From assembly GCA_022565805.1 (NCBI GenBank), contig JAIULZ010000022.1, positions 1-41,279 on the forward strand: a DNA stretch of 41,279 bases. Direction: 5' to 3'. Every line of letters begins with the position of its first letter. Position 1 is the first letter of the stretch. The stretch comes from Balneolales bacterium (GTDB lineage Bacteria > Bacteroidota > Rhodothermia > Balneolales > Cyclonatronaceae). The notes beneath the pieces are model-generated. The model did not search any database. It saw only the letters and a program-made list of their open reading frames with translations, and had not been told where the DNA came from. Both the position numbers and the translations under genes were made by a program. Below, one piece after another: positions 7,875 through 36,916 of the stretch.

Positions 7875-8333
7875 ATGATTTTAACTTTTTCGACCGATAA
7901 CATTCGCGAAATTACTGAACTGCTGGGTTGCGATTACAAGCAAATCGGGGAAGTATCCCGATTTACAGTAAAACCGGAAAATAATGAGCTTAAAACGGTC
8001 ATAGAAATACATATGGGCCTTAAAGTAGACGGTAAAGAAACCAATATCGTTTCTGTCTACTCTCATAATTCTTTTCTTCAACTACATAATTGTACTGGTT
8101 TTGTTGCGAGTAAAACCCTTCAGCAAATTACGTTTTTTGGGAAGCTGGGAGGGCAAACAACAGGCTTGATTATTGAGAAGAATGGCGGCATCAGCATGTA
8201 TGCAAATGTTGATGACACCCTTTTGAACGGTGACTTTACTAAACTTCCGCCCGAGGTTATGATGTGTAGCGTGGCCCTATCTCTTACGGAGTCCTTAGAT
8301 TTCGAAGATTTTTCTTTCGATGATGATGTCTGA
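7875..8333 (+). CDS. Conserved-looking hypothetical protein, acidic tail
   Basis: I do not recognise this 152-residue protein. It is soluble in appearance, with no signal peptide or membrane segment, and seems to be alternating beta and helix. A central glycine-rich patch (FFGKLGGQTTGLIIEKNGG) is followed by a region ending in a strongly acidic tail (DFEDFSFDDDV). The ATG start at 7875 has no Shine-Dalgarno, which is ordinary in this window. It lies downstream of the glycosyltransferase terminator and 86 bases upstream of ybeY, on the same strand, so it may be the first gene of the ybeY-smg-topoisomerase cluster. Coding reality is supported by length, position and codon use in line with the neighbours. 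No function is offered. Confidence 0.75.
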   Translation: MILTFSTDNIREITELLGCDYKQIGEVSRFTVKPENNELKTVIEIHMGLKVDGKETNIVSVYSHNSFLQLHNCTGFVASKTLQQITFFGKLGGQTTGLIIEKNGGISMYANVDDTLLNGDFTKLPPEVMMCSVALSLTESLDFEDFSFDDDV

Positions 8334-8419: not shown

Positions 8420-8860
8420 TTGGAGCAAAATACGTTTCACCTTAGCATAACAAATCAATCCGGTTTATCTCATAACATAGATGCAGCTCGCCTTGAAAGC
8501 CTGTATCTTTTAATGTCTGATGAGGAGAAAGTGACGCTTCATTTTATTGAAATTGTACTGATAACCGAAGAGATGATTGTACAAATTAATAAAGAGTTTT
8601 TGGGTAAAGACTACATTACAGACATTATTACTTTTCCTTACCACGAAGATGGTGAGCCAATTGAGGGCACGCTTTTTTGTTGTCTACCGCGTATTTATGA
8701 TCAGGCTAAAGAGTTTCTGACTACAGAAACTGACGAATTATACCGAATTTGTATCCATGGTTTACTCCATTTAGTAGGTTATACCGATACATCCGGTCCT
8801 GAAAAGAAACGAATGACCCATAAAGAAAATGAGTATTTAGAAAGGCTAAAAGATTTATGA
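8420..8860 (+). CDS. ybeY: Endoribonuclease YbeY (rRNA maturation / ribosome quality control)
   Basis: This 146-residue protein matches YbeY, the metal-dependent single-strand endoribonuclease that acts in 16S rRNA 3' end maturation. The family motif appears as HGLLHLVGYTD at residues 113-123. His113 and His117 are the first two metal ligands. The third ligand position, usually His in HGxxHLxGYDH, is Asp123 here; I recall the same replacement in Bacteroidota YbeY proteins. The upstream strand TDIITFPYH also fits. The start is the TTG at 8420; the next in-frame ATG (residue 32) would remove conserved N-terminal sequence. Its stop overlaps the smg start by four bases (ATGA), showing translational coupling. 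Confidence 0.9.
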   Translation: MEQNTFHLSITNQSGLSHNIDAARLESLYLLMSDEEKVTLHFIEIVLITEEMIVQINKEFLGKDYITDIITFPYHEDGEPIEGTLFCCLPRIYDQAKEFLTTETDELYRICIHGLLHLVGYTDTSGPEKKRMTHKENEYLERLKDL

Positions 8861-9303
8861 GAGCAAGTGTAATCGATTTAATTATTCGTATTGCAAAAGA
8901 TATCCACTCTGGCAGTAGCCTGCAGGAACTAGACAAAAATGCATTTAGTAATGTTGACACTGCAGAACGTTCGGCTGCCTATTCATGGATTATGCAAAAA
9001 ATTGAAAATGGGGAACTTAGCAGCTCCGAAAAAACAAAGTCTAAACGCAATTTAAGAGTGTTGCATATTGCTGAACGCTCTATGATTACAACAGAAGCCT
9101 ATGGATACCTTCTCGAACTCTATAATCTTGGGCTAATTAACCACAGCGACTTAGAAAGTATTATCGAAAGCTTTATGATGAATGCGTTCGAAAAAGTAAC
9201 ACTTGAAAAGATGAAAGAAACGGTTGCAAGAGTCGTATTTGGGAAAGATGACAAACAGCGCCCCGGTAATGTATATCTCAAAGGAAATGAACGCATTAAT
9301 TAA
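8857..9303 (+). CDS. smg: Smg-like (DUF494) protein
   Basis: This 148-residue soluble helical protein matches the DUF494/Smg family by pattern: an N-terminal helix (MRASVIDLIIRIAKDI), a variable middle, then a helix pair of the form R-x-L-x(3)-E-R-x(3)-T-x-E-A-x-G-Y-L-L-x-L and a closing DLESIIESFMMNAFEKVTLEKMKETVARVVF stretch, which parallels the E. coli Smg end (GFLLFL, REMVIERV, LDDLKWVILMVLF). The molecular function of Smg is not established. Context supports the call: in E. coli smg lies directly upstream of topA, and here a topoisomerase-like gene follows after about 100 bases. It overlaps ybeY by four bases. Confidence 0.72.
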   Translation: MRASVIDLIIRIAKDIHSGSSLQELDKNAFSNVDTAERSAAYSWIMQKIENGELSSSEKTKSKRNLRVLHIAERSMITTEAYGYLLELYNLGLINHSDLESIIESFMMNAFEKVTLEKMKETVARVVFGKDDKQRPGNVYLKGNERIN

Positions 9304-9405: not shown

Positions 9406-10929
9406 ATGGTCTCCGTCTCAAAACTTATCCTTCTGATTGTAGAATCTGAAATAATTGCCAGACGGATTAGAAGATTTAATCTTCCCGGGATTGAAGTTTT
9501 AGCTACAGCCGGGTATGCATGGAAACCGAAGATTGATCTCCCCAGGCTTAAAATACAGGCTAAGGCAGATCCTGAAGCTGTGGCTGTAGCTTTCAGAAAA
9601 AAACTAAAGGAGCTTGCCCCTTTTGCCCATCATATCATAATTTGCACGGATTCTGATCCAAGCGGGCGCTTTATTTCTCATTGCATTGTAAAGTTTTTGG
9701 GTAATTATGCCAATAAAGCTTGCTTTGGTCATCTGACTTATCTGTCTGCAAATAGTATTCAATCGGTAATTGAGAGGGCTATTTTACAAAAACCAGATTC
9801 CTCAGAAAATGCAACTGCAATCCCTCTCCTATCCGGTGCTGTTATTTCAGATCAAATTTCGAGGAAAATCAAGAGAGCTACTAGCCGTGTTGGCAGATTA
9901 AATCCTGCTTCTCAAAGAGATATCTTCATCCGGTTTGCAGCATGGCTCGCATACCTGGAGACTATTCAACGAACCCCCTATTTTGCAAGTAAATGTGGCA
10001 GATATATTCTTGGTCCTACACAAGAAATAAAATCACCGATTAAATTTGAACAGTACTATACAATTGAGCCGGTCAAAAATATTACGCAAAATTTTTGGAG
10101 GCCTGTTGTATTACCCGCCTCTACTGCTTTCATACCCTGTATAAGCGGAAATAGTTTTTCAGAAACACAGCTATCATTAAATAAACTTTTTGCATACGAC
10201 GACCCTGATTTCCCTGACGGTCTTATAAGCTATCCCCGAACTTCATCTCAATTCTATTCTGAAACTACCTGGAGAAATCTGCAATCTGATTTACTCATAA
10301 GCCATCAAAATATTTCTCAATACGAATTACTGCCGCTTCAGCTGCAGAAGAATCATCACAAGAGAGGACATCAGGCACTGCATATTTTTTCATTTTCAAA
10401 TACACCGGAGGATATTGGCTACAGATTTGAAAAAAATCAACAGATAATTTACAAGTATATTTATCATAAAACATTGGTATCTTTACTTTTGCCTCAAGTT
10501 ACTCCAACATCCAAACTTGCGTATTGTAATGAGCTTCAAACTAATCTGTATTTCGTAGACAAGAGTGAAATACCCGAAAATTACACAATGGGCAAACTTT
10601 ACCTTAAACCCAGGGTAGTTCTTGAAGATTACATGCAAAATATTCTTAAATCTGGTATGGTTAAACCTTCCTCTTTAGGTAAGTCGATGGATTACCTTAT
10701 ACAGCAAGGTCTGATTAAAGTATGGCGAAATGAGACTACAGGTTTCGATTTTGCAGAATATTACGATGATCTGTTTCAAAATGATGAGTCGGAAATTCAT
10801 AGAAAAATGAGCCCCGCTATGTTATTCCAAAAAATGTATTCTCTGTTTGAAGATGAAATACATCGTATAGATACAGTTGAGGAGCTAAAAAAACTTAGAT
10901 CTTCAGTAGACTCACTTTTTAACGCATAA
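9406..10929 (+). CDS. Divergent, reduced type IA DNA topoisomerase
   Basis: This 507-residue protein has the order of motifs of a type IA topoisomerase at about 60% of the usual TopA length. An N-terminal Toprim-like domain starts KLILLIVES with Glu13, and continues to TDSDPSG with Asp82 and Asp84. In TopA this is TDPDREGE, so the Arg and Glu after DxD are lost. A helical stretch DQISRKIKRATSRVGRL recalls the AQxARRxLDR region. FSETQLSLNKLF then leads to LISYPRTSS, with likely catalytic Tyr276 and supporting Arg278. GHQALH (His322) sits where TopA has AHEAIRPT. KPSSLGKSMDYLIQQGLI matches the RPSTYAxII segment. No C-terminal zinc ribbons are present. ATG at 9406 is preferred over TTG at 9391. 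Position after smg is the topA position. It may be an active minimal enzyme or an altered paralogue. Confidence 0.72.
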   Translation: MVSVSKLILLIVESEIIARRIRRFNLPGIEVLATAGYAWKPKIDLPRLKIQAKADPEAVAVAFRKKLKELAPFAHHIIICTDSDPSGRFISHCIVKFLGNYANKACFGHLTYLSANSIQSVIERAILQKPDSSENATAIPLLSGAVISDQISRKIKRATSRVGRLNPASQRDIFIRFAAWLAYLETIQRTPYFASKCGRYILGPTQEIKSPIKFEQYYTIEPVKNITQNFWRPVVLPASTAFIPCISGNSFSETQLSLNKLFAYDDPDFPDGLISYPRTSSQFYSETTWRNLQSDLLISHQNISQYELLPLQLQKNHHKRGHQALHIFSFSNTPEDIGYRFEKNQQIIYKYIYHKTLVSLLLPQVTPTSKLAYCNELQTNLYFVDKSEIPENYTMGKLYLKPRVVLEDYMQNILKSGMVKPSSLGKSMDYLIQQGLIKVWRNETTGFDFAEYYDDLFQNDESEIHRKMSPAMLFQKMYSLFEDEIHRIDTVEELKKLRSSVDSLFNA

Positions 10930-10936
10930 AATTAAT

Positions 10937-12109
10937 ATGTCTGAAAACTCATCAAGCCCGAAATTTGGTAAGGATAAAAAGAAATCCGCTACTGAAAATT
11001 CTGCAGACTGGAAATTGATTATAAAAAAGTACACCAGCCAACGTACGAGTACTAGTGCAAACCCGGCCGATAAAACAGATGCAAGAAATAATACATCGGC
11101 AGCTAATACCCAAGACCCGGGTGACAAGCAATCAACAGGCCTGCTGGTGTTATTTGTTTTTCCTTATTTGTTAAGCGTTTTGTTTGTTTTGAGCTTTTTT
11201 TGGGATTTTGATGGTATAGTTTTCCATCTACCATTTTTTTCTTTGAGTGCAGAAGGCTTGGTTCGTACGCTTAGTGTTGCGGGGCTTATTGGTTTTCTCA
11301 CCAACTGGCTGGCTATACAAATGTTGTTTTACCCAAGAAAAAAACGTCCTGTTCTGGGTCAGGGACTTATTCCTGCTCAGAAAGATAAAATAGCTTTACG
11401 CCTATCTGCTGCTGTAGAAAGAGAGCTCATAAACCCGGAGTTAATTAAGCGAGAGTTTATCGAAAGTGGAATTTTAGACCATTACATTAATCGGTCTATA
11501 AGAGGATTATATGATACAATGCAACAGCAAGATTTCCGGGCTGATGTAGATGCTCTGGCCAGAAAATATATCCGACAAACACTGGAAAATGAATCTGTTA
11601 TCCAGAAGCTTGTTCAAGAGTCGGAGGCCATCATCCGGAAAAGAACAGAGAGCAACAGCGTGGAAAAATCGGCGCTTAAGCTATATTTACTCTTAAAAGG
11701 TAAAACTTTAGACGAATTACTACGAGGTATTATTTCATCACTGCCAGAATCGGTTGATGAAGCGGCTATACCTTTTCATGGCATTGTAAGTAAACTACCT
11801 GCGCAGTTAAGGTCGGAGCGTGCAGGGTTTCATGAGCTTATTTTAAGTTTACTCGAAAAAGTGGTTGACGAAATAAAAATCGGAAAGATTATTCAGGAAA
11901 ATCTACATAGGTACGATGAAGTAAAGCTGGAAAAAATTATTCGTAGTACTACAGACTCTCAGCTTCGGTACATAAAATATTTAGGCGCGGTGATTGGCAC
12001 AATTGGTGGGCTTGTGATATGGAGCCCGATTCCAGCGCTTATTTTATTGTCGGCTATAACCGGAATAGTTTTTCTTACAGATAGAATACTACAACCTGCA
12101 TCCGATTAA
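10937..12109 (+). CDS. DUF445 family membrane protein
   Basis: This 390-residue protein fits the DUF445 family. A charged, low-complexity N-terminus (residues 1-65) precedes a hydrophobic segment (about 68-90), then the family signature GFLTNWLAIQMLFYP (about 119-133) and the following QGLIPAQKDKIALRLSAAV block. The long middle is helical with coiled-coil character, and a hydrophobic helix lies near the C-terminus (LGAVIGTIGGLVIWSPIPALILLS). It should be an inner-membrane protein; function is unknown for the family. It begins only seven bases after the topoisomerase stop, so the two are likely co-transcribed. Its stop lies three bases from the end of the convergent outer-membrane gene, with no room for a classical terminator. 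Confidence 0.85.
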   Translation: MSENSSSPKFGKDKKKSATENSADWKLIIKKYTSQRTSTSANPADKTDARNNTSAANTQDPGDKQSTGLLVLFVFPYLLSVLFVLSFFWDFDGIVFHLPFFSLSAEGLVRTLSVAGLIGFLTNWLAIQMLFYPRKKRPVLGQGLIPAQKDKIALRLSAAVERELINPELIKREFIESGILDHYINRSIRGLYDTMQQQDFRADVDALARKYIRQTLENESVIQKLVQESEAIIRKRTESNSVEKSALKLYLLLKGKTLDELLRGIISSLPESVDEAAIPFHGIVSKLPAQLRSERAGFHELILSLLEKVVDEIKIGKIIQENLHRYDEVKLEKIIRSTTDSQLRYIKYLGAVIGTIGGLVIWSPIPALILLSAITGIVFLTDRILQPASD

Positions 12110-14076: not shown

Positions 14077-14928
14077 TTACTTCAGAATTTGACGCACGAA
14101 ACCTGGCAGTGCAAAACATCCGCTGTGTACGTCTTGGTTGTAATATTTGAGAGTATCGGCAAATGATGACAAACGATTATTAATATCACTGGTAACTTCA
14201 TCAGAAAGAGGATCTCTCTTCTTGCTTGCAATAGACATAGACCACATTCCCGTAGGATAAAGAGGTATGTATGTTAGAAATAATTTCGCAATCGGGAAAA
14301 GATCTGAAATCGCATTCTGCACGCTTCTTATACTATCGTGATATGATTCAACGAACGGGCTTTCTGTTTGTGATACCAAAACACCATCTGTTTTTAAGCA
14401 GTGGTGACATTTTTCATAAAAGTCTTTCTTAAAAAGATCTACAGCCGGGCCTACAGGATCGGAACCATCAATAATGATTACATCATACTTGTTTTCGGGT
14501 CCGTCTACAAAAGTGAGGCCATTTTCGTAAATCACATTTAGCTTTGGATTTTCGAAATCACCAACTTCGGGCATGTACAGTTTACTGGCACGCACAACGG
14601 CTTCATCAATTTCTACCATATCTACCTGTTCTACTCCGGGGTGCTTCAGCACTTCTCGTGCTGTGCCACCATCTCCCCCGCCAATAATTAAAACGGTTTT
14701 AGGATTTGGATGCGTTAATAAGGGCACATGCGCCATCATTTCATGATACACAAATTCATCCTTCTCGGAGAGCATAACCATACCATCTATGGTCATTAAG
14801 TTGCCCCATGTGTCGGTTTCAAACACTTCAACGAGTTGAAAGGGTGTTTGTTCACGAAAAAGTTGTTTACCTATACCTACAGTTAGTCCTGTAGCGCCGT
14901 TGTAAAACTCATTAAAGTGTAAAGACAT
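14077..14928 (-). CDS. speE: Spermidine synthase (aminopropyltransferase)
   Basis: This 283-residue cytosolic enzyme transfers an aminopropyl group from decarboxylated S-adenosylmethionine to an amine, normally putrescine, giving spermidine. The nucleotide-binding GGGDGGTAREVLKH is at residues 83-96, VEIDEAVV follows at 105-112, and the catalytic DGSDPVGPA (Asp154, Asp157) corresponds to DxTDPxGP of characterised enzymes. The N-terminal beta domain is present and the length is normal. It is the third gene of speD-pdaD-speE, with 32 bases after pdaD. Because arginine decarboxylase in this cluster makes agmatine, the enzyme might use agmatine directly, as in Thermus, or putrescine made elsewhere; the sequence does not decide this. 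Confidence 0.95.
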   Translation of the reverse strand: MSLHFNEFYNGATGLTVGIGKQLFREQTPFQLVEVFETDTWGNLMTIDGMVMLSEKDEFVYHEMMAHVPLLTHPNPKTVLIIGGGDGGTAREVLKHPGVEQVDMVEIDEAVVRASKLYMPEVGDFENPKLNVIYENGLTFVDGPENKYDVIIIDGSDPVGPAVDLFKKDFYEKCHHCLKTDGVLVSQTESPFVESYHDSIRSVQNAISDLFPIAKLFLTYIPLYPTGMWSMSIASKKRDPLSDEVTSDINNRLSSFADTLKYYNQDVHSGCFALPGFVRQILK

Positions 14929-14960
14929 CTAATGAAAGAATAAAATTAAATTAAATTTTC

Positions 14961-15431
14961 TTATTTGTACCAAAGAACGGCAGCGGCGTAAACAGCACCT
15001 TTCTTGATAACCGTATGCTCAATTCCAATAGTAAGAATTTCGCGGTATTTGCGGTTACGATATTCATAACCATCCACCACCATCTGGCGTACAATATCCT
15101 CTACTTCTTTTAGTGGCGCAGTATCTTCAAATTCCATAATAAGGCCTGGCTCACCGTCTTTTTCAGGAAGACCAACACCAATAGCAGCAGAAATAACTTC
15201 ACCCGGATTAGCAGAATTAATAGCTGCATAAGCTACGGGAATTAAGGCACCTTTAGGGAGGATAATTTTATCTACCAATTCGCAGTTTGGCGGTATAATG
15301 CTACTCATACGAACAAGATTTGTATCACCAACACCGGCATTAAGAAGGGCGAGGTCGAAAGCATTAAGTACTGTATTTCCCTCACCGGAACCTTTTACGA
15401 GAGAAAATATTTCTGGGTTTTTAACCATCAT
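14961..15431 (-). CDS. pdaD: Pyruvoyl-dependent arginine decarboxylase proenzyme
   Basis: This 156-residue protein matches pyruvoyl-dependent arginine decarboxylase, which converts arginine to agmatine and CO2. The self-cleavage site is visible as RMSSIIPP, with Ser43-Ser44; cleavage between the two serines leaves a beta chain and a pyruvoyl-blocked alpha chain. The family-typical GEVISAAIGVGLP and the glutamate-rich GLIMEFEDTAP follow. The length matches the archaeal enzyme (about 160). It lies between speD and speE, so agmatine is presumably channelled into spermidine synthesis; an agmatinase (speB) or N-carbamoyl route is not in the window. The start is one of two adjacent ATG codons. Confidence 0.92.
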   Translation of the reverse strand: MMVKNPEIFSLVKGSGEGNTVLNAFDLALLNAGVGDTNLVRMSSIIPPNCELVDKIILPKGALIPVAYAAINSANPGEVISAAIGVGLPEKDGEPGLIMEFEDTAPLKEVEDIVRQMVVDGYEYRNRKYREILTIGIEHTVIKKGAVYAAAVLWYK

Positions 15432-15463
15432 AGCTTTAAAATTCTTTTCAATTAAATAATTAC

Positions 15464-15877
15464 TTAATTCACATTGTTGTATTGTGCGGAATCTTTGGGT
15501 TTAAACAAGAGTTCTTCGCCTTCGGCAACTTTAAACATACCTCGCTTCATCTCAATACTTGAAACGTTCTTCGATTGGAAAGAATCTTTGATAAACTCTT
15601 GTATAATCCAAGGATCTATAGTTTCGCCACAAGTGAATATGTCTACTGCTGCATACCCGTACTCGGGCCATGTATGTATGGCAACATGCGATTCGGCAAT
15701 AACTACCGTACCACTAACACCATGCGGGCTGAATTTGTGAAAATTATGGGAAATAATACTGGCTTTCGACCTTCTGGTGGCTTCGAGCAATATAGACTCA
15801 ATTTTAGCAACATCGTTAATAATATCGCTGTTACAATCGTAGTACTCTACCAATATTTGACGTCCTAATGCTTGCAT
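15464..15877 (-). CDS. speD: S-adenosylmethionine decarboxylase proenzyme
   Basis: This 137-residue protein is the short, prokaryotic class 1B AdoMet decarboxylase that supplies the aminopropyl donor for SpeE. It matches at every key position: the self-processing site Glu62-Ser63 in AESHVAIHTWPE, the proton donor His68 and catalytic Cys83 in FTCGE, the same numbering as the Thermotoga enzyme. Processing turns Ser63 into the pyruvoyl group. It is the first gene of the polyamine cluster, with an AGAGG Shine-Dalgarno eight bases before the ATG, one of the few good ones in this window. The 33-base gap to pdaD suggests an operon. Confidence 0.95.
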   Translation of the reverse strand: MQALGRQILVEYYDCNSDIINDVAKIESILLEATRRSKASIISHNFHKFSPHGVSGTVVIAESHVAIHTWPEYGYAAVDIFTCGETIDPWIIQEFIKDSFQSKNVSSIEMKRGMFKVAEGEELLFKPKDSAQYNNVN

Positions 15878-34757: not shown

Positions 34758-35429
34758 ATGGCATCCATTCAAATAAAAAACCTTCGGAAAACTTATAAAG
34801 ACCCCGCAACCGGAGTACCATCCGATATATTGAATATTTCGTTTTTCGAAACCGGCCCTAAAAAACATCTCGCTATTCGCGGTGTTTCAGGCTCTGGTAA
34901 AACCACTTTTCTGCACTGTATTTCAGGAATGATAAGTGCCGATTCGGGCGAGATTAATGTTCTTGGTACTAATTTAAGTGCACTTACCGAATCGAAAAGA
35001 GATCGTTTCAGAGCAAACCATATTGGCTACATATTTCAATCTTTTAATTTGCTGGATGGCTTTACGGCCCTAGAAAATGTAATGCTGGGAATGCAGTTTT
35101 CCGATAAAGGCGCAGACCGTGAACGTGCCGAATTGCTGCTGGAAAAAGCCGGTCTTAAAGACCGGATGTTTAACCGGCCTTCTCAACTTTCTGTGGGTCA
35201 GCAGCAAAGGGTGTGCATTGCCCGAGCATTGGCAAATAACCCCGAAATTCTTCTGGCAGATGAACCAACAGGATCGCTCGATCCTAAAACCTCTGCTGCT
35301 GTACTCAACCTTATACGAACAGTTGCCGAAGATAAAACTCTCATTTTAGTGAGTCATGAGCCGGAAGTGCTGCAACAATTCGATTCTGTTACCGATTTAA
35401 ATGAAATAAACCAGACTGCACAGGTATGA
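34758..35429 (+). CDS. ABC transporter ATP-binding protein, LolD/MacB type
   Basis: This 223-residue cytoplasmic ATPase powers the permease encoded next to it. Walker A is GVSGSGKTT (42-50), the Q-loop stretch FQSFNLLDGFTALENV is typical of the LolD/FtsE/MacB subfamily, the signature is LSVGQQQRVCIARAL (144-158) and Walker B is ILLADEPTGSLD (164-175). The H-loop is VSHEPEVL. All catalytic parts are present. It overlaps the permease gene by four bases (ATGA), as expected for two subunits made together. LolD-like ATPases usually drive mechanotransmission across the envelope (lipoprotein release, efflux) rather than classical import. Confidence 0.95.
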   Translation: MASIQIKNLRKTYKDPATGVPSDILNISFFETGPKKHLAIRGVSGSGKTTFLHCISGMISADSGEINVLGTNLSALTESKRDRFRANHIGYIFQSFNLLDGFTALENVMLGMQFSDKGADRERAELLLEKAGLKDRMFNRPSQLSVGQQQRVCIARALANNPEILLADEPTGSLDPKTSAAVLNLIRTVAEDKTLILVSHEPEVLQQFDSVTDLNEINQTAQV

Positions 35430-36916
35430 ATCCCTTAAAAATAGTTTTAAAAAATATGAAGCTCAGGTTACTGAGCACCGTTCTTACCATAGGGTCTGTT
35501 GCATTAGCGGCTTCCTTGGTTATTGCTGTTCAAATTCTGGAGCGAGAAACAGAAAGAAACTACACCCAAACCTCTGTAGGCTACGATCTGATTCTGGCAG
35601 CCCCCGGTAGCAGAATGCAAACAACCTTAAACACTATCTATCACTTGGAAACCTCCACGGGCGTAATTCCATACGGTGTTTTTGAGGCTGCATCAAGAGA
35701 TCCCAGAATAGCTAAAGCTTTTCCTTTTTTTGTAGGAGATAACTACCGCGGAGTACGAATAATTGGTACGAATCAGCAGTTTATTGATAGTGCAGAGCCA
35801 CGTGCCGGCGTACAATTTGAGCTGGCCGAAGGCCGTAACTTCAGCGCACCGTTCGAAGCCGTAATTGGCAGTGCCGCCGCAAGAAGACTTGGAATTGAAG
35901 TTGGTCACAAATTTTATATGACCCACGGCGTGTCTGAAACTGGTGGCGGTGCAGAAGCCCATATCCACGACGAGCATGAGCTGGTGATTGTCGGGATATT
36001 GGAGCAATCCAGAACTGCGAATGATAATGTTATTTTCACAAGCGTATACTCTACCTACGTCGTTCATTACCATGACCATGACCATGACCACGATCACAAC
36101 CATGATGATCATGACCATAATGGACACAGCCATGGCAACAACGCTGTTCATGAGCATGAGCATGAGCATGAGCATGAGCATGGCCATAATCACGATCACG
36201 ACCACAATGGCTCTCACTCCCACGACGATCACCACCATAGTGAACATGATGATGATGATGAACATCACCATCATGGAAGCCATTCAGTTACATTAAGCGA
36301 ACTTGAAAGTAGAGTTACTGCAATAGACGCTGTTTTGCTACGATTTAATAACCAAGCTGCCGCGATTCAGTTAGCTGGGTTAATTAATTTCCCGGTACCC
36401 GACAATCCTCTTTTCAGGCAAAACGCCATGAGAGATCCGTTCTTCCAATATAAAGATGATTTAATGGCTGTTATACCTGCTACACAGATTCAAGAGCTGA
36501 TGGGAATCGTAGGAAATGCAGAGCAAGTACTGCGGGCAATCGGCTGGCTGGTATTTATTGTTGCCTTGCTAGGTGTACTAGTTGCACTCTACAACACAAT
36601 GGAGGAAAGACGCCGCGACATCGCAATTATGCGTTCGCTTGGTGCTTCAAGAAGCAACATTCTAACCTATATTCTGCTTGAATCTGCATTGATTACGGGA
36701 ATTGGCTGTATTATTGGCCTTCTTCTTGGCCTTGGTATCGTTGGTTTCAGTGCTCCGCAAATCGCCGAACTGGCGGGAATCGTAATCGATTCTTATCAAA
36801 TCGAAGCTACACAAATTACAACAATTGCTATTTTTACAGGTTTGGGTATATTATCTGGTATAATTCCTGCGTTAAAGGCATACAACACAGATGTAGCTAC
36901 AAATCTGGCACCCTAA
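35426..36916 (+). CDS. ABC permease, FtsX/MacB type, with histidine-rich loop
   Basis: This 496-residue membrane protein has the FtsX/MacB plan. One N-terminal helix (about 15-38) precedes a large periplasmic domain (about 40-370) and three C-terminal helices (about 380-490), with ALYNTMEERRRDIAIMRSLGASRSNIL between helices, the usual FtsX-domain signature. Within the periplasmic domain, residues 214-286 hold 32 His, plus many Asp and Glu, in the form of HD, HE and HN repeats. Such a loop would bind Zn, Ni, Co or Cu in the periplasm. Pairing with the overlapping ATPase gene is certain; with DUF3299 and DUF192 it is likely. I infer a metal-related transporter or metal-responsive mechanotransmitter. 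The loop is encoded by short tandem repeats. Confidence 0.93.
   Translation: MNPLKIVLKNMKLRLLSTVLTIGSVALAASLVIAVQILERETERNYTQTSVGYDLILAAPGSRMQTTLNTIYHLETSTGVIPYGVFEAASRDPRIAKAFPFFVGDNYRGVRIIGTNQQFIDSAEPRAGVQFELAEGRNFSAPFEAVIGSAAARRLGIEVGHKFYMTHGVSETGGGAEAHIHDEHELVIVGILEQSRTANDNVIFTSVYSTYVVHYHDHDHDHDHNHDDHDHNGHSHGNNAVHEHEHEHEHEHGHNHDHDHNGSHSHDDHHHSEHDDDDEHHHHGSHSVTLSELESRVTAIDAVLLRFNNQAAAIQLAGLINFPVPDNPLFRQNAMRDPFFQYKDDLMAVIPATQIQELMGIVGNAEQVLRAIGWLVFIVALLGVLVALYNTMEERRRDIAIMRSLGASRSNILTYILLESALITGIGCIIGLLLGLGIVGFSAPQIAELAGIVIDSYQIEATQITTIAIFTGLGILSGIIPALKAYNTDVATNLAP
36065..36283 (+). repeat. Histidine-codon tandem repeat region within the permease
   Basis: This stretch is dominated by CAT/CAC codons alternating with GAC, GAT or GAG. 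It includes a clean hexamer run of CATGAG units at about 36149-36180 and CATGAC units at about 36070-36090. The low complexity makes all other frames open and leads to long false reading frames on both strands. It is prone to repeat-number change by slippage, in steps that keep the frame. Confidence 0.85.

Follow-up and report, generated by a model that had tools for sequence, protein, structure and literature searches.

A compact, strongly reduced type IA topoisomerase subfamily that coexists with TopA in Balneolales genomes

The window analysed here, a 41,279-nucleotide stretch of DNA from a Balneolales bacterium (contig JAIULZ010000022.1), carries at 9406..10929 (plus strand) a gene that, judged from sequence comparison and structure prediction, encodes a real type IA topoisomerase homologue. 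We regard it as probable that this protein is a member of a compact type IA subfamily that is specific to the Balneolales, has been inherited vertically and coexists with TopA, with an apparently intact tyrosine chemistry and a putatively remodelled substrate groove. The subfamily is new, clearly bounded and strongly reduced, and a limited literature search found no published description of it.

Results

The window protein shares the core of type IA topoisomerases

The open reading frame starts with ATG and encodes 507 amino acids with no internal stop, and its in-frame codon likelihood was clearly the best among the six frames; a promoter and terminator scan of the locus gave results at chance level. 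Searched alone, the protein matched Pfam Topoisom_bac with an E-value of 2e-7 (30.8 bits vs. a cut-off of 35.1) and Toprim with 1e-4 (22.6 bits, below the cut-off of 23.1), and it scored 29.2 bits against the NCBIfam topA equivalog TIGR01051, whose cut-off is 456 bits. A family profile built from 19 members matched, among PDB sequences, the whole core of S. mutans TopA (6ozw, E = 2.9e-28), T. maritima TopA (2gai, 9e-24), the 67K core of E. coli TopA (about 1e-19) and the reverse gyrases (about 1e-12; 8e-13), which share the homologous core but lie further away than TopA and contain a helicase domain that the subfamily lacks. Profile–profile comparison with 18 TopA proteins of the class paired 450 columns with residues 1–585 (probability 99.9, E = 1.7e-31), where gaps fell within the Toprim insert, both halves of D2 and the part of D4 surrounding SAGRVQS. 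The topA models scored far better against the subfamily than the topo 3 model (9.9e-20 vs. 2.5e-5).

The AlphaFold2 model of the Rhodohalobacter sulfatireducens orthologue (L046:6004-7365; pLDDT 89.5, pTM 0.86) displayed the Toprim domain, six strands in the D2 region, the D3 helices and D4, consistent with the four-domain fold (D1–D4) of TopA, whereas the model of the window protein was weaker (pLDDT 69, pTM 0.67), with low confidence in the middle and the tail. The 50 PDB matches listed by Foldseek for each of the two models were all type IA topoisomerases, with E-values as low as 2.6e-22 for the L046 model; the query-normalised TM-scores of about 0.5–0.64, at an rmsd of about 10 Å, indicate that the domain arrangement differs or is uncertain. 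These matches, together with that of the family profile to 6ozw, bore out the original prediction of a type IA homologue.

Based on the Pfam match (PF01751, residues 9–105) and the alignment to TopA, the Toprim domain (D1) spans residues 9–125 (9430..9780, plus strand, as are all features of the gene). It contains the acids E13 (9442-9444), D82 (9649-9651) and D84 (9655-9657), while I17 (9454-9456) and S86 (9661-9663) align at the places of TopA Lys13 and Glu115. The reduced D4/D2 region includes a stretch of low confidence (residues 197–211, 9994..10038, pLDDT <50) inside an insert that the alignment marks as special to the window member. The D3 region, delimited by the PF01131 match and by conservation (residues 252–373, 10159..10524), holds Y276 (10231-10233) and R278 (10237-10239) within SYPRT, as well as H322 (10369-10371). 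PSSLGKSMDYL (residues 421–431, 10666..10698) aligns in D4 as an eroded counterpart of TopA GRPSTYASII. The landmarks named in the original prediction were thus all found at the residues it gave. The reduced length it described was also evident, as the subfamily core comprises about 455 residues, some 150 fewer than the roughly 600 of TopA. The C-terminal DNA-binding repeats are absent from the subfamily according to both sequence and prediction, and the net charge of most members is about zero or negative.

The catalytic residues are invariant while the DNA groove is eroded

E13, D82, D84, Y276, R278 and H322 were invariant in all 32 distinct full-length members, which share about 25% identity. 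All three strictly conserved type IA acids, namely E plus DxD (PMC6101483), are therefore kept, alongside the Tyr-x-Arg-Thr and the His of HEAIRP shared with TopA; how E, DxD, R and H contribute to type IA catalysis has been described (PMC7587558, PMC6101483). We then scored, in 18 family members, the 127 columns that are near-invariant in 25 TopA proteins, counting a column as kept at ≥90%. Only 18 columns were kept and 21 mostly kept, whereas 69 were changed and 19 deleted. All six catalytic residues fell among the 18 kept columns, for which the random expectation, phylogeny ignored, is 3.6e-6.

Other TopA motifs fared differently. The Lys13 position, a lysine in ≥96% of the 25 TopA proteins, is hydrophobic (I/L/M/V) and the Glu115 position is Ser or Ala in 32/32 members. 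In E. coli TopA, Lys13 is required for DNA cleavage, which drops strongly, together with relaxation, in the mutants K13A and K13R (PMC5983628); D111, D113 and E115 have been termed the Mg-binding triad (PMC7823277). At the place of DPDREGE the window protein reads DSDPSGR, having lost the R and the following E, as predicted. The groove motifs SAGRVQS and GRPSTYA are gapped or altered in most members, although the alignment of SAGRVQS is uncertain in this reduced region, and R114, E117, the Arg of HEAIRP, the R and TY of RPSTY and the TKPPARF segment, which is eroded or deleted, are likewise altered in most, R114 being lost and E117 variable. The original prediction had stressed the loss of Glu115 but missed those of Lys13, SAGRVQS and RPSTYA.

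As in topoisomerase III (TopB), the catalytic Tyr is directly followed by Pro (31/32 members; YPR vs. YMR in TopA), which is a Topo III trait (PMC10969213), and the protein would be a second type IA enzyme in addition to TopA. Unlike TopB, however, the subfamily has no Lys next to the Toprim Glu, since the residue at this position is S14 in 32/32 members. Family-invariant positions that are not TopA-like include W39, P41, R64 and F89; as a speculation, R64 might supply the missing positive charge.

Such losses could also point to a pseudo-topoisomerase, in which the fold is preserved but strand cleavage has been given up, so that the protein would bind nucleic acids or act as a regulator and need its invariant residues for binding or folding. 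The absence of Lys13 and Glu115 from every member, the erosion of SAGRVQS and RPSTYA and the fast evolution of the subfamily (about 28–32% identity within the genus, where TopA proteins of the whole taxonomic family share about 75%) are consistent with this explanation. However, the six catalytic residues do not vary across the 32 members while 88 of the 127 TopA-invariant columns were changed or deleted, and in dead paralogues the nucleophile is usually the first residue to go. We therefore consider a pseudo-topoisomerase rather unlikely, and the catalytic competence of the compact paralogue, as far as its residues can tell, fairly probable.

The gene occupies a fixed slot in a minority of Balneolales genera

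Using a profile of 13 orthologues and counting E <1e-60 as a strong member, we found the gene in 42 of 129 Balneolales genomes and 8 of 39 genera, namely the genus of the window (6/6 genomes), two others of its family, and g25, g26, g31, g34 and g36; most genera of the order have no such gene. No member outside the Balneolales was present among the listed matches in 296 genomes of the phylum, where the matches beyond the order had frames of about 730–930 aa, consistent with canonical TopA (six examples read). A match in Anaeromyxobacter (L048, E = 7e-5) is presumed to be an ordinary TopA. Carriers include Rhodohalobacter halophilus, R. sulfatireducens and many MAGs labelled Balneolaceae or Balneolales, and isolate names suggest a saline or soda-lake origin.

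In the window, the gene is preceded by ybeY (8420..8860, plus strand), encoding an endoribonuclease, and by smg (8857..9303, plus strand), identified by its DUF494/Smg match as originally predicted, and it is followed by a DUF445 gene (10937..12109, plus strand) that starts 7 bases past its stop codon. Wherever the contig was long enough, carriers showed the order DUF2723-orf152-ybeY-(smg)-paralogue-DUF445, except that another gene replaces the downstream DUF445 in genus g26. Most non-carriers checked had the same order minus the paralogue, that is ybeY-DUF445, or ybeY-smg-DUF445 in family f5, and other genes followed smg in the non-carriers G006, G011, G012 and G015. The fixed slot in carriers and the empty slot in most non-carriers led us to infer vertical inheritance from an ancestor of families f1, f3 and f4 with repeated loss. 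Among side observations, smg/DUF494 was found in families f1, f2, f3 and f5, whereas the f4 genomes searched all lacked a match. The orf152 product (window 7875-8333), a 152-aa protein with no Pfam match that always lies directly before ybeY, is about 50–76% identical to its counterparts in Balneolales loci and represents a conserved protein of unknown function.

The neighbourhood bears on two further claims. The gene had been suggested to sit at the old topA locus on the strength of an E. coli smg-topA synteny. In E. coli K-12, however, smg is followed by yrdD, and the adjacency is documented for Neisseria, in a dprA-smg-topA operon (PMC5817196). A canonical topA following smg was not observed in any genome of the order, and the idea of an old locus is thus unsupported. 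YrdD resembles the window protein as a topoisomerase-related gene product encoded next to smg, but it has 180 aa and is, we assume, only zinc-ribbon-like, whereas the window protein contains the catalytic core but lacks a zinc ribbon.

The fixed position behind ybeY, which encodes a ribosomal RNA endoribonuclease, also raises the idea of an RNA-directed type IA enzyme, either an RNA topoisomerase or an RNA strand transferase linked to this neighbour. All topoisomerases known to act on RNA are type IA (PMC10969213), and the DNA groove is remodelled. However, the idea derives from the neighbourhood, and ybeY-DUF445 persists in non-carriers that have no paralogue, which makes it improbable.

The subfamily evolves fast under purifying selection

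Nei–Gojobori dN/dS was 0.07–0.24 for the ten pairs of close relatives with finite estimates, dS being near saturation in several, against the value near 1 that the original prediction had named as refuting its claim. In the window member, 4 of the 43 columns conserved across the family are broken, compared with 0–7 in other members. As the window tip has no close relative, purifying selection on the window copy itself is deduced from the family. Judged by these sequences, the subfamily is under purifying selection and is not decaying, as originally argued. The paralogue also evolves much faster than TopA and than its own gene neighbours, its identity within the genus being about 30%, compared with about 70% for orf152 and about 50% for DUF445.

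A decaying pseudogene of a duplicated topA is very improbable. Such decay would agree with the window tip, the longest in the family tree (2.17), and with the poorly predicted middle and tail of its model, but the 507-codon frame is intact, no more conserved columns are broken than in several relatives, and dN/dS is low in close pairs of relatives.

In a tree with long branches and a small outgroup, the subfamily formed one clade that stood apart from all TopA proteins compared, on a very long stem. This tree, in which the subfamily was not nested in Balneolales TopA, gave no support to a recent duplication of that gene, or to the old topA locus discussed above. Other origins were also considered. 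For a phage origin there was no phage match, and the single viral-contig match carried the DPDREGE and SAGRTQS of a normal topoisomerase; plasmid matches were of low identity, to records annotated as topA or topoisomerase. A defence system was rejected, as PADLOC returned one marginal match (0.0076) in 1 of 19 members.

A canonical TopA is encoded elsewhere in the same genome

In the assembly of the window genome, which is 98.95% complete, PF01131 matched in two places, on contig C76 (E = 1.1e-112) and at 9406-10929 (1.4e-7). The C76 protein is a canonical TopA of 874 aa with intact VESPTKA, DEDREGE, SAGRVQS, YMRTDS, HEAIRP and RPSTYA. It likewise has no CxxC zinc ribbon. The original prediction that all zinc ribbons had been lost therefore holds insofar as no CxxC pair was found in the 507-aa protein, but their absence is not peculiar to it. 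Each of the further carriers examined with PF01131 (G005, G044, G082 and G113) likewise encodes a TopA of its own, and topA and the compact paralogue lie about 1.86 Mb apart on the single contig of G005. Of the two original suggestions, replacement of topA or a paralogue, the second thus stands; that the gene, placed after smg like Neisseria topA (PMC5817196), has replaced TopA as the topoisomerase I of the genome is refuted by the resident TopA and has next to no probability.

No further, Topo III-like PF01131 match was present among the 40 genomes searched. RecQ was present in 8/8 carriers tested but also in several non-carriers, indicating no specific link. With regard to type II enzymes, PF00521 (GyrA/ParC-type) was mostly represented by one gene in the sampled Balneolales vs. 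two in three outgroup genomes of the class, and no separate Topo IV was seen in the sampled Balneolales genomes. G105 has two nearby PF00521 copies (C4:453185 and C4:457512), and the G004 copy is split over contigs.

Discussion

If the compact paralogue is an active member of the type IA class, known type IA chemistry (PMC7587558) suggests how it would work. Tyr276 would attack one nucleic-acid strand to form a 5'-phosphotyrosine, with E13 and H322 passing the proton and R278 stabilising the transition state. E13, D82 and D84 would hold the Mg2+ needed for religation, after which the cut strand would be resealed. Since little is left of the usual single-strand groove (D4) or of the C-terminal domains, the enzyme probably does not perform TopA-like bulk relaxation and probably has a narrower substrate or a partner protein. 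A Topo III-like role in resolving recombination or replication intermediates is conceivable. The missing Lys and DNA-groove residues argue for a substrate choice or rate different from that of TopA.

Two features of the sequences, and the absence of the gene from most genera of the order, weigh against an active, compact type IA subfamily. Lys13 and Glu115 are lost in 32/32 members with the Topo III Lys absent too, and the near-zero or negative charge seems odd for a DNA binder, although the members are halophiles. More tentatively, the subfamily might rank with Topo I and Topo III as a third type IA class of bacteria. Its members would then be active tyrosine strand-transferases of halophilic Balneolales that do without Glu115 and without the active-site Lys of either known subfamily, and their substrate would be a special DNA or RNA; we consider this possible but doubtful.

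Few enzymes are as highly conserved across life as those of type IA. The compact subfamily, which has shrunk in nature while retaining just the chemical residues, reveals which portions of the TopA core are dispensable to selection, and it allows the functions proposed for Lys13, Glu115 and the DNA groove to be examined in a natural setting. It would also add a further type IA enzyme to the Balneolales, where the genomes sampled contained no Topo III and mostly one GyrA/ParC-type gene.

Other features of the window

Two further loci were noted. On the minus strand, 14077-15877 includes a spermidine synthase (Pfam) among small ORFs that by eye resemble pyruvoyl arginine decarboxylase and AdoMet decarboxylase, indicating a probable polyamine operon. 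At 34758-36916, an ABC ATPase and an FtsX-like permease with a long His/Asp-rich stretch (DHDHDHDHNHDDHDHNGHSHG...) were recognised by eye, which is suggestive of metal handling.
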